Shown here: piece after piece, positions 40,903 through 42,435 of the stretch
Position numbering within the stretch: the stretch's first letter is position 1
How the letters are laid out: each line of letters opens with the position of its first letter
NCBI GenBank assembly: GCA_018400295.1
Contig: JAGYMZ010000021.1
Location: 1-42,435, forward strand
Source: Bacteroidales bacterium
GTDB taxonomy: Bacteria; Bacteroidota; Bacteroidia; Bacteroidales; B18-G4
DNA length: 42,435 bases
Reading direction: 5' to 3'
The notes under the pieces: generated by a model
Told to the model about the DNA's origin: nothing
Database searches by the model: none
The model's input: only the letters and a program-made list of their open reading frames with translations
Position numbers and translations under genes: made by a program

Positions 40903-41280
40903 ATGAACCATGTAAGATCATCGATCACCCTGATAACCTCCCTCGCCCTGATCTTTTTCCTGGGCTGCACCAAAGCCGATGAACAGGACAGGGACAATAC
41001 CGCCGGGAACCTGACCCACCCCATTGCCGGTTTTAGTTATACAGGAAACGATAAACCCGCACCGGTAACCATAGAATTTACCAATACATCGGAATATGCC
41101 GACCGGTTTGAATGGAATTTCGGGGATGGGTATACGTCTGCAGAAGTAAATCCTGTGCACACCTTCCACAACGGCACCAATGAACCCAAAAGCTATCTCG
41201 TAACCTTAAAAGCAACGGATTCCGGGTCCGGCCTAAGCAACACACGTGCCCAGTCTGTCAAAATATTGCCCTCAAAATGA
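40903..41280 (+). CDS. PKD-domain lipoprotein
   Basis: A 125-residue lipoprotein (attachment at Cys22, FFLGC) consisting mainly of one PKD domain: PIAGFSYTGNDKPAPVTIEFTN, FEWNFGDGYTSAEVNPVHTF, and SYLVTLKATDSGSGLSN. PKD domains are common surface adhesion or binding modules. It is driven by the best promoter in the window. No enzymatic domain is attached and no partner is obvious. Confidence 0.8.
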   Translation: MNHVRSSITLITSLALIFFLGCTKADEQDRDNTAGNLTHPIAGFSYTGNDKPAPVTIEFTNTSEYADRFEWNFGDGYTSAEVNPVHTFHNGTNEPKSYLVTLKATDSGSGLSNTRAQSVKILPSK

Positions 41281-41444
41281 ATCATTTACTATCCAATTGC
41301 GTATAACCCTACGTTATCGTATATCTTTTTCTGATAACAAGCCAACAAAATCTTATAACTATCTGCCTGATTTTCAGTCTTTAAATTGCTTTGGCATAGA
41401 ATTCGCACTGTATTGTGGCAGCAACCATTAAAAAATCTTATGAC

Positions 41445-41594
41445 ATGAAACTTGGAATAAAAATCAGTTCCATCTCCAGAAAGCCGAAATATTACAGGTA
41501 TTATAAATGTGACCGTTGCGGGTACATCTCAACGGTCAAGAACACAAACTGTCCGATCTGCATCAAGGACGGCTTTGAAATTAAGTTGAAATAA
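41445..41594 (+). CDS. Small zinc-ribbon protein (49 residues)
   Basis: A short gene starting ATG KLGIKISS with two CxxC pairs (CDRC at about 22-25, CPIC at about 36-39) spaced like a rubredoxin or zinc ribbon, and a basic N-terminus. This is a plausible rubredoxin-like or nucleic-acid-binding protein. The stop (41592-41594) overlaps the 3' end of the hybrid GIY-YIG frame on the other strand by 14 nt. I see no confident promoter. Size and motif support a real gene, but function is unknown. Confidence 0.65.
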   Translation: MKLGIKISSISRKPKYYRYYKCDRCGYISTVKNTNCPICIKDGFEIKLK

Positions 41595-41955
41595 TATGAT
41601 GTAACGGATTTCCGGAGATTTTTTTCAACCTTTTAAGGCACGAATTTAAAAGCAGGATAATCCACCTCCAGGAAAATAGTGGATGACATAATTTAATAAT
41701 GCGACCCTTCACCGGGGTTCCCCCGGATACCTCTTTCACCCTCTGCCCGGTCACACCGACCAGGCTGACCTGCACATAAGAAGCCTGTTTTTTAGATCCG
41801 AAAAATTCAACTGAAATAACTTCCCAGGGCCGGTAACGCTTTGTCCAGCCCTTGCCCAGCTCGTTGTGCGATTTAAACCTGGCAATCAGATTGGAAGTAT
41901 AACCGATATAAATCTTATCGAATTTTCGAGAATATAAAACATACGTTACAAACAT
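41581..41955 (-). pseudogene. GIY-YIG nuclease, hybrid copy with replaced C-terminus
   Basis: From the ATG at 41955 the product has a GIY-YIG nuclease N-terminus: TYVLYS, YIG at residues 16-18, Arg26 and His30, to residue 58 (SKKQA). From there it departs completely from the intact copy at 42232-42435. The AMAREKTLK segment, whose glutamate is the metal ligand in this superfamily, is missing. Residues 60-84 (YVQVSLVGVTGQRVKEV...) instead resemble part of a T9SS C-terminal sorting domain, and the rest is unrecognised. It is probably inactive. The DNA is 130/132 identical to the intact copy up to the join at 41782, so the change is recent. A -7 box (41965-41972) lies just upstream. Confidence 0.75.
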
Positions 41956-41964
41956 TGTGCTGAT

Positions 41965-41972
41965 CAAAATTA
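41965..41972 (-). promoter_or_regulatory. -7 box of the hybrid GIY-YIG gene
   Basis: The minus strand reads TAATTTTG, a full match to TAnnTTTG, 9 nt before the ATG, implying a very short leader. It lies in the sequence unique to this copy. Confidence 0.35.
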
Positions 41973-41979
41973 AAGCCCC

Positions 41980-42064
41980 CTTTGAACCGGCTTTTTCTTT
42001 GTAGCGGGGGGCAGGATTCGAACCTACGTCCGCCCAAATCGGGCGGATATGAGCCCGGCGAGCT
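41980..42064 (-). repeat. fMet-tRNA 3' fragment B plus flank, direct repeat of 42150-42233
   Basis: On the minus strand this contains AGCTCGCCGGGCTCATA (D-arm end and anticodon loop of an initiator tRNA). A 7-bp palindrome (42029-42035 with 42041-42047) replaces the expected anticodon-stem and variable segment. A normal T-arm (GTAGG TTCGAAT CCTGC) and the CCCCGCT acceptor strand follow. No 5' half is present, so it cannot be a functional tRNA. An extra C in the acceptor strand distinguishes it from copy A. The shared flank TTTGAACCGGCTTTTTC continues 3' of the tRNA. Confidence 0.75.
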
Positions 42065-42137
42065 GCCGGAGTAAATTGAATATACCCCCATAGCCGGCTT
42101 TGAATATCAATCCCGGTCATTGGCCGGTTCTGCAACC

Positions 42138-42166
42138 AAAAAAAGCCGGCTTTGAACCGGCTTTTT
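42138..42166 (-). terminator. Terminator after tRNA fragment A
   Basis: A perfect 10-bp stem (42140-42149 with 42157-42166) around a 7-nt loop, with a run of T on the minus strand at its end and a T-run on the plus strand too. It is the natural place for a tRNA transcript terminator and supports the tRNA origin of the fragment. Copy B retains only a weaker version (41972-41994). Confidence 0.75.
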
Positions 42167-42233
42167 CTTTGTAGCGGGGGCAGGATTCGAACCTACGTCC
42201 GCCCAAATCGGGCGGATATGAGCCCGGCGAGCT
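42150..42233 (-). repeat. fMet-tRNA 3' fragment A plus flank, direct repeat of 41980-42064
   Basis: Same content as copy B: tRNA 3' half from GTAGCTCGCC to the acceptor end, the palindrome at 42198-42204 with 42210-42216, and the 3' flank. The tRNA sequence reaches to about 42235 and joins directly to the intact GIY-YIG gene, whose stop codon TAG (42232-42234) is part of the D-loop segment GTAGCTCG. No 5' tRNA half precedes it. Confidence 0.75.
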
Positions 42234-42435
42234 ACTTCGGAACAATAAAAGAATGAATATATCTTCTGCCCCCGGCAGACTTTAAAGTTTTTTCCCTGGC
42301 CATAGCCTGTTTTTTAGATCCGAAAAATTCAACCGAAATAACTTCCCAGGGCCGGTAACGCTTTGTCCAGCCCTTGCCCAGCTCGTTGTGCGATTTAAAC
42401 CGGGCAATCAGATTGGAAGTATAACCGATATAAAT
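42232..42435 (-). CDS. GIY-YIG nuclease family protein, intact 3' end, 5' end outside window
   Basis: The visible 67 C-terminal residues start at IYIGYTSNLIARFKSHNELG and contain the YIG motif, the Arg and His of the active site, and the AMAREKTLK segment with the metal-binding glutamate. They end SFIVPK. The length and end match small single-domain GIY-YIG proteins that are common in Bacteroidetes and loosely annotated as UvrC-like. The gene runs off the right edge, so the start is not seen. The stop codon lies within tRNA-derived sequence, which marks a sharp junction between gene and tRNA fragment. Confidence 0.88.
   Translation of the reverse strand: MYIGYTSNLIARFKSHNELGKGWTKRYRPWEVISVEFFGSKKQAMAREKTLKSAGGRRYIHSFIVPK

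Follow-up and report, generated by a model that had tools for sequence, protein, structure and literature searches.

A small GIY-YIG nuclease gene, arranged in an array with broken copies of an initiator tRNA gene, occupies the end of the stretch of DNA analysed here, and we consider it fairly probable that this stretch holds the local member of a Bacteroidota-wide family spreading as a homing cassette of tRNA genes. The stretch, hereafter the window, measures 42,435 nucleotides and constitutes an entire contig (C14) of a Bacteroidales genome of 2.63 Mb in 91 contigs. The same arrangement was found again in many other genomes, and the units are likely to be selfish elements homing into tRNA genes.

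The whole array lies in the last 650 bases of the window, on the minus strand. It starts with the 3′ part of a GIY-YIG nuclease gene (42232..42435; PF01541, 50.5 bits), a reading frame open at its 5′ end with 67 codons and a TAG. There follow a tRNA-fMet 3′ remnant that begins on the D-loop side and extends to the acceptor end (42171..42235), which has the same form in relatives of the Met clade, a terminator-like hairpin with a T-run (42138..42170), recognised from the sequence, and a spacer (42066..42137). The second half comprises another tRNA-fMet 3′ remnant (42001..42065, repeat D2), a diverged copy of the hairpin (41966..42000, repeat D4, 95% over 39 nt) and the 5′ part only of a second GIY-YIG gene (41782..41955, repeat D1; PF01541, 45.3 bits), whose ATG lies at 41955 and whose homology to the first copy stops at 41782. 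Both remnants carry the identical perfect palindrome TCCGCCCGATTTGGGCGGA (42198..42216 and 42029..42047), which takes the place of the anticodon 3′ stem and the variable loop, at the same site as in relatives.

An earlier sequence-only reading had described this minus-strand order, and all its elements are where it placed them. Its counts were also right: the gene copies differ at two of 132 bases (98% identity in the overlap of 41782-41913 with 42304-42435), the near-identical fragments share 58 identical nucleotides, and the gene does end in tRNA-derived sequence, with its TAG stop (42234-42232) falling inside GTAGCTCG. One gene had been called intact; in fact neither is complete, because the contig end cuts the 5′ end of one and the other breaks off at 41782. 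The fragments, read as fMet-type 3′ ends, are indeed tRNA-fMet-like but are not plain tRNA, both being interrupted by the palindrome, which had been overlooked. ARAGORN found no intact tRNA in the window, and none of the nine Rfam matches between 40000 and 42435 reached the gathering score of its family; a 17-mer of the tRNA fragment has two matches in the window at up to three mismatches, against 0.20 expected. On the plus strand, a 59-aa open reading frame with CxxC pairs (YKCDRCGY..NCPICI; 41415-41594), resembling a small zinc ribbon, separates the array from its neighbours, and a 125-aa frame at 40903-41280 has a signal-like start and a PKD-like stretch.

Two other contigs of this genome have, close to their starts, three more small GIY-YIG matches in all. 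On one (C68), the 3′ half of a tRNA-Val and a terminator precede a nuclease gene ending in a tRNA-Val remnant, in which a CCCGAC..GTCGGG palindrome stands in place of the anticodon arm. The other (C75) contains one unit and the start of a second, with tRNA-Asn-like remnants carrying two palindromes, and a solo fMet remnant with palindrome is found near the end of a further contig (C26). The genome has 24 tRNAs over the cut-off and the sole CAT tRNA reads as an elongator; the assembly is therefore devoid of an intact initiator tRNA. If the units are indeed parasites of tRNA genes, their arrays, which break contigs, may be the reason why some tRNA genes are absent from draft assemblies of Bacteroidota.

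The link to tRNA genes was surveyed with PF01541 in nine genomes of the family and 149 of the order, of which 80 of the 149 gave a match, UvrC-like proteins included. The loci read, a part of all places, were 25 new ones in the family, 30 in the order and 80 stretches among the matches listed; a Met-clade alignment run against a collection of 84,980 species contributed the best 80 of 153 relatives. Over the two surveys, an intact tRNA on the same strand lies within 200 bp of 111 of 248 distinct units (47 of 152 in the first set, 64 of 96 in the second), and an opposite-strand tRNA within that distance of none of the 248; units with a domain score below 30 were left out of these and of the remnant counts, and identical units were counted once. 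A later set includes one unit (L395) that, in addition to its own tRNA-Asn, has a tRNA-Leu on the opposite strand, 65 bp downstream. The gap from tRNA end to nuclease domain has a median of 56 bp (n = 101). When wider limits are set for the intact tRNA, 137 units have one adjacent to them, and in 110 of these a remnant of it can be aligned on the far side of the reading frame. A looser fragment test in the first survey placed a tRNA fragment near 74 of 151 units and none near the other 77, among which are some tRNA units with a truncated or diverged neighbourhood (L077, L079, L121) and others standing between different repeats (L076, L144, L160).

An aligned remnant together with an adjacent intact tRNA was obtained for 11 tRNA identities: Ala, Arg, Asn, Asp, Glu, His, Leu, Met, Phe, Pro and Val. 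The idea that nuclease gene and tRNA end form one unit at an initiator tRNA locus is thus borne out for the tie of GIY-YIG genes to tRNA genes, the duplicated tRNA ends and the tandem units, in many Bacteroidota, but the initiator is not the sole target, as all the other identities just named and elongator Met appear to be targeted too. The association with tRNA-fMet, which the same reading proposed to seek in related genomes, is present there. Where ARAGORN called a tRNA-Cys (L169) and a Phe-AAA (L146), it has probably mistaken palindrome remnants for tRNAs; Cys was for this reason not counted as an identity, nor was a distant Gly (L134). In six genomes, 16 of 28 loci of small GIY-YIG reading frames abut a tRNA, neighbouring copies having been grouped by us: three of four in Marivirga arenosa, four of six in Pedobacter helvus, three of four in Draconibacterium mangrovi (one at 379 bp), four of seven in Algoriphagus hitonicola, the single one in Niastella vici and one of six in another genome (G160). 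Viral contigs scanned with a clade of Val units (A3) gave one relative, the units being otherwise on bacterial contigs. Outside Bacteroidota, three loci of Candidatus Cloacimonadota (L202, L203, L204) have same-strand GIY-YIG genes 27-56 bp behind tRNA-Asn.

Two layouts were observed. Layout D (for instance L123, L143, L153, L171) consists of the tRNA, a terminator, the reading frame, a 3′ remnant with palindrome and a terminator; the remnant lies directly 3′ of the reading frame, many units take their stop codon from it and some nuclease C-termini are translated tRNA. Layout U is its mirror image, with a 5′ remnant bearing the palindrome, the reading frame and the intact tRNA, and is mostly of Arg type, the D-loop containing CCTGCCTGCCGGCAGGCAGG or a sequence close to it (L095, L111, L116, L119, L133, L139). 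Among 117 labelled rows of the nuclease tree, 101 are of layout D and 16 of layout U. Tandem arrays comprise two units (L099, L143, L153), three (L123, L171, L247) or four (L249), and one 3-kb stretch (G274) contains six nuclease copies; the arrays read usually combine a single intact tRNA with extra copies that are broken. One genome (G160) also has four tandem GIY-YIG genes with a period of 472 bp (L389, C1:673200-677200), near which no tRNA was found, and, behind a tRNA-Met, some six arrayed units whose palindromes recur at intervals of 344 bp and whose nuclease frames are fragmented (L396, C1:526200-529800). A second class of small GIY-YIG genes lies away from tRNAs and is flanked by other repeated hairpins (L041, L054, L060, L076, L144, L150, L160), several members having GGTATTAA ahead; it is possibly a REP-like system of its own.

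The palindromes, whose site is specific to the clade, set the remnants apart from ordinary tRNA fragments. With a stem of at least 6 and a loop of at most 6, a perfect palindrome is present in 87 of the 104 remnants that could be aligned to an intact tRNA, against 9.9 expected in shuffles, and in 20 of 79 intact tRNAs by the same criterion. Automatic alignment blurred many palindrome boundaries, so the Met and Val-GAC sites were read by eye and their counts made by patterns. In Met units, the ACCCGAAGGT between ..ATA and C.. is replaced by TCCG..CGGA, and within the Met clade this same site is altered from Bacteroidales to Flavobacterium, Pedobacter and Marivirga, with small variants in the last; the change was also seen in a Cyclobacterium MAG and in Kryptoniota. 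It is found in 31 of 60 Met units by a strict pattern and in 40 of 60 by a loose one, those outside the pattern including some cut by contig ends and some in which a remnant cannot be made out (Cyclobacterium salsum, C. lianum). A free-core form of the Met signature occurs at 22 places in 14 of 392 genomes of the phylum, so that few genomes have the fMet form; 21 of the 22 read as tRNA-Met remnants and 12 of the 22 stretches contain a nuclease, and the reversed signature has no place in the 392 genomes. In several Val-GAC units (L180, L193, L210) a 10-nt segment before the anticodon loop is replaced; L099 differs. At a few loci (L132, the same as L189, L227, L341, L342, L349) the promoter and 5′ part of tRNA-fMet are repeated and palindrome-interrupted upstream of the intact tRNA, with no nuclease; L132 has six such 5′ remnants.

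The proteins belong to the GIY-YIG family, both window pieces and five relatives (57-66 bits) exceeding the PF01541 cut-off of 22.6, and in a scan of seven proteins the sole Pfam domains were GIY-YIG and a weak T5orf172. Across 27 relatives eight columns do not vary, among them Y5, Y16, G18, R26, H30 and E63; these six residues correspond to the catalytic set of GIY-YIG nucleases, the window copies themselves being partial. A structural model of one relative (L121; pLDDT 94.8) is nearest to UPF0213 (1zg2) and Slx1, with I-TevI lower (E 0.55). The reading frames are under purifying selection, as the median dN/dS is 0.25 over 138 pairs with dS of 0.02-1.5, three pairs, all between distant proteins, reaching 1; the broken frames of the L396 array run counter to this. 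The nuclease lineage also follows tRNA identity. On a tree of 218 nuclease domains, identity changes 27 times, against a mean of 56.1 and a lowest value of 52 in 300 shuffles, and without Met 21 times against 40.8 (lowest 35); C-terminal tails were omitted, domains scoring below 60 or from frames longer than 260 codons were dropped, forks are poorly resolved, the sample comes partly from the Met-clade query, and the Cys and Gly labels are doubtful.

Flavobacterium allowed the comparison of occupied and empty fMet loci and the definition of unit boundaries by alignment that the sequence-only reading had suggested, since both kinds of locus exist there. A close tRNA-fMet is found in 57 of 61 genomes. 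Among the 70 stretches read, two of which overlap, seven contain an intact nuclease unit, three a palindrome remnant without nuclease (L294, L316, L323) and five end too soon to tell (L331 and L336, for example, stop 103 and 73 nt beyond the tRNA); the remaining 55 have no remnant palindrome, one of them retaining a stump of the nuclease gene (L332). The empty site L275, compared with both L230 and L236, gives the limits of the insertion. Occupied L230 matches it at 94.7% over 899 bp on the left and 90% over 499 bp on the right. The insert, from the tRNA terminator to the right flank, measures 393 bp, first terminator included, and comprises a leader, the nuclease frame, a remnant bearing two palindromes and, after it, another terminator; its single reading frame of at least 40 codons is the nuclease, and it has no integrase.

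At four Flavobacterium loci (F. defluvii, F. oncorhynchi and two others) all comparisons, 17 of 17, place the terminator on the remnant side nearer to those of orthologous empty sites, and the tRNA-side type is common to other occupied loci and one empty one; these loci look as if a new tRNA end had displaced the old one, the remnant-side terminator being the native one. Over all comparisons, displacement is favoured by 28 and opposed by 12 of those with left-flank orthologues, whereas with right-flank orthologues 6 favour it and 18 oppose it, with solo or decayed empties omitted from the tallies, L298 and L299 lacking a remnant end, L322 lacking an orthologue, both terminators alike in L220, L230 and L236 and the remnant end of L295 doubtful. 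Displacement is therefore supported in some loci only.

From these observations we infer the following route. The nuclease, predicted to cut inside the tRNA gene, would produce a double-strand break for which an occupied copy would serve as repair template, the crossovers falling within the tRNA to the left and right of the palindrome. The locus would thereby gain a new tRNA end, a terminator and the nuclease gene, while the old tRNA end would be displaced and left behind; nuclease gene and tRNA end would travel together, as the sequence-only reading had supposed. The palindrome would mark the cut site and make the remnant uncuttable, and renewed cutting of the intact tRNA would drive tandem amplification, as SegB does in phage T6. 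Because amplification of the T6 tRNA-segB unit needs active SegB and recombination genes, array formation could be explained by such renewed cutting. The main weakness of the homing reading is the unchanged intact tRNA. In occupied F. defluvii the tRNA-fMet is identical at 74 of 74 positions to that of many empty sites, and comparison with those tRNAs revealed no sequence immunity in it, the altered copy being the remnant; the occupied allele is therefore not protected by its sequence as in classical homing. Other observations that count against homing are the mixed outcome of the terminator comparisons, the broken nuclease frames of L396, the units with no tRNA fragment nearby and the small-frame loci that abut no tRNA, the palindrome remnants arrayed without a nuclease in L132, and a fold closer to UPF0213 and Slx1 than to I-TevI.

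Another origin of the units deserves to be weighed, in which the nuclease serves a family of mini-palindromes comparable to RAYT/REP systems, the gene travels with the palindromes and tRNA arms are mere hairpin targets. Palindromes do occur away from tRNAs: the whole genome of Draconibacterium mangrovi has 69 places of TCCGYC..GRCGGA against one for the reversed pattern, two of its palindromes lie in the loops of terminator-like hairpins (L255, L262), counts in other genomes are 17-0, 7-2, 6-3, 6-0 and 6-0, and the GIY-YIG genes L076, L144 and L160 stand between different repeated palindromes. The complete Marivirga genome, however, does not rise above its reversed control (2 against 4), and TCC..GGA palindromes reach 1.09 per kb within 350 bp of the reading frames against 0.087 per kb further off and 0.020 per kb in shuffles. 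This explanation, which we hold to be unlikely, also leaves aside the match between lineage and tRNA and the duplication of a whole tRNA end with its terminator. The units could alternatively be host genes, a small UPF0213-like repair nuclease lying behind tRNA genes by chance and multiplied by ordinary repeat recombination. Such an origin would accord with the closest folds and with purifying selection, but it fits poorly with the patchy occupancy of Flavobacterium (7 of 70 stretches), the many different tRNAs and a remnant with its palindrome at a fixed site, which makes it quite improbable.

We give little credence to a useful system of tRNA dosage or decoys, in which the nuclease, like SegB in phage T6, would amplify tRNA loci or decoy copies of them against toxins that attack tRNAs. 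The tandem arrays and the SegB precedent (PMC13096335) speak in its favour; the extra copies, mostly broken beside one intact tRNA, and a PADLOC search for anti-phage defence with weak matches only (best E 0.003) speak against it. The palindrome might act in RNA instead, keeping tRNA-processing enzymes off the tRNA-like 3′ end of the nuclease mRNA, an idea suggested by the position of the layout D remnant and the stop codon that it often supplies. Palindromes are also found in remnants behind no nuclease frame (L132, L341, L342) and in 5′ remnants upstream of the frame, and this role is very improbable. An assembly artefact of repeats could come to mind for the window, since its copy and two others of the genome are at contig ends. 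Arrays lie well inside the complete Marivirga arenosa chromosome (L218) and a 3.69-Mb contig (L249), so the arrangement, at the level of the family, is no artefact, and the chance of one is negligible.

Returning to homing into tRNA genes, a broader proposal, for which we see about even chances, is that the units represent a new class of selfish elements, palindrome-sealed tRNA homing cassettes. Their GIY-YIG nucleases of about 85 residues, each lineage specialised to one tRNA gene, would break and complete this gene, seal the discarded end with a palindrome against recutting and multiply in tandem; the tRNA genes invaded, in Bacteroidota and phyla close to them, would be of no fewer than 11 identities. 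In the open-licence literature we recognised no description of these units. If the proposal holds, essential tRNA genes of a major bacterial phylum would host a widespread parasite whose way of life is to break these genes and make them whole again, a bacterial chromosomal counterpart of fungal mobile ORFs and phage SegB. It would raise the question of how an 85-residue nuclease can be specific to one tRNA gene, provide natural minimal nucleases whose presumed cut sites could be read from their palindromes, and make testable a general question, the survival of a homing enzyme whose target gene can hardly change.

Among known systems, islands that integrate in tRNA genes use tyrosine recombinases, keep one intact tRNA and leave a direct repeat of its end. 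The Bacteroidota units resemble them in being inserted at a tRNA gene with an intact tRNA kept and its end repeated, and differ by an insert of a few hundred bp, which in L230 has the nuclease as its sole frame of at least 40 codons and no integrase. Single-domain GIY-YIG proteins of the UPF0213 or YhbQ type are the nearest solved relatives by both sequence and fold (1zg2), and we know of no linkage of these proteins to tRNA genes. RAYT enzymes, for their part, are Y1 transposases, and no such domain was found in the seven proteins scanned. Their REP sequences are short palindromes tied to one nuclease family (PMC3733652), a likeness with our units. In the Bacteroidota the nuclease is of GIY-YIG type, and the palindromes are concentrated in tRNA remnants beside the gene.

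SegB of T-even phages is a free-standing GIY-YIG homing endonuclease reported (PMC13096335) to cut within tRNA genes and to drive tandem amplification of the tRNA-segB unit in T6, provided that SegB is active and phage recombination genes are present. Both systems thus have a small free-standing GIY-YIG gene beside tRNA genes, and the passages of that paper considered here make no mention of partial, palindrome-bearing tRNA copies. The motif reported for SegB, RAWTSGAAC, resembles the tRNA T-loop when read backwards, by our own comparison. SegB is phage-borne, whereas the Bacteroidota units are chromosomal and split the tRNA, leaving a displaced end with a palindrome. It is also a larger protein. 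A position beside the target, as for free-standing homing endonucleases, was found in the 111 of 248 units mentioned above, always on the same strand, the window having remnants without an intact tRNA.

The mobile ORFs of fungal mitochondria, known from atp6, atp9, cox2 and nad3 of Glomus and atp6 of Allomyces, also come with duplicated gene ends, and in the Glomus atp6 case a LAGLIDADG ORF accompanies an inserted end that is foreign and diverged (PMC3630166). As described there, they have an endonuclease ORF placed between a new end completing the gene and the displaced native end. Our units resemble them in that, for 110 of the 137 next to an intact tRNA, the nuclease ORF separates this tRNA from an aligned remnant, the remnant side looking native at some of the loci compared. 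The fungal elements occupy mitochondrial protein genes, whereas those of Bacteroidota occupy bacterial tRNA genes and add to this common design their palindromes and tandem arrays.
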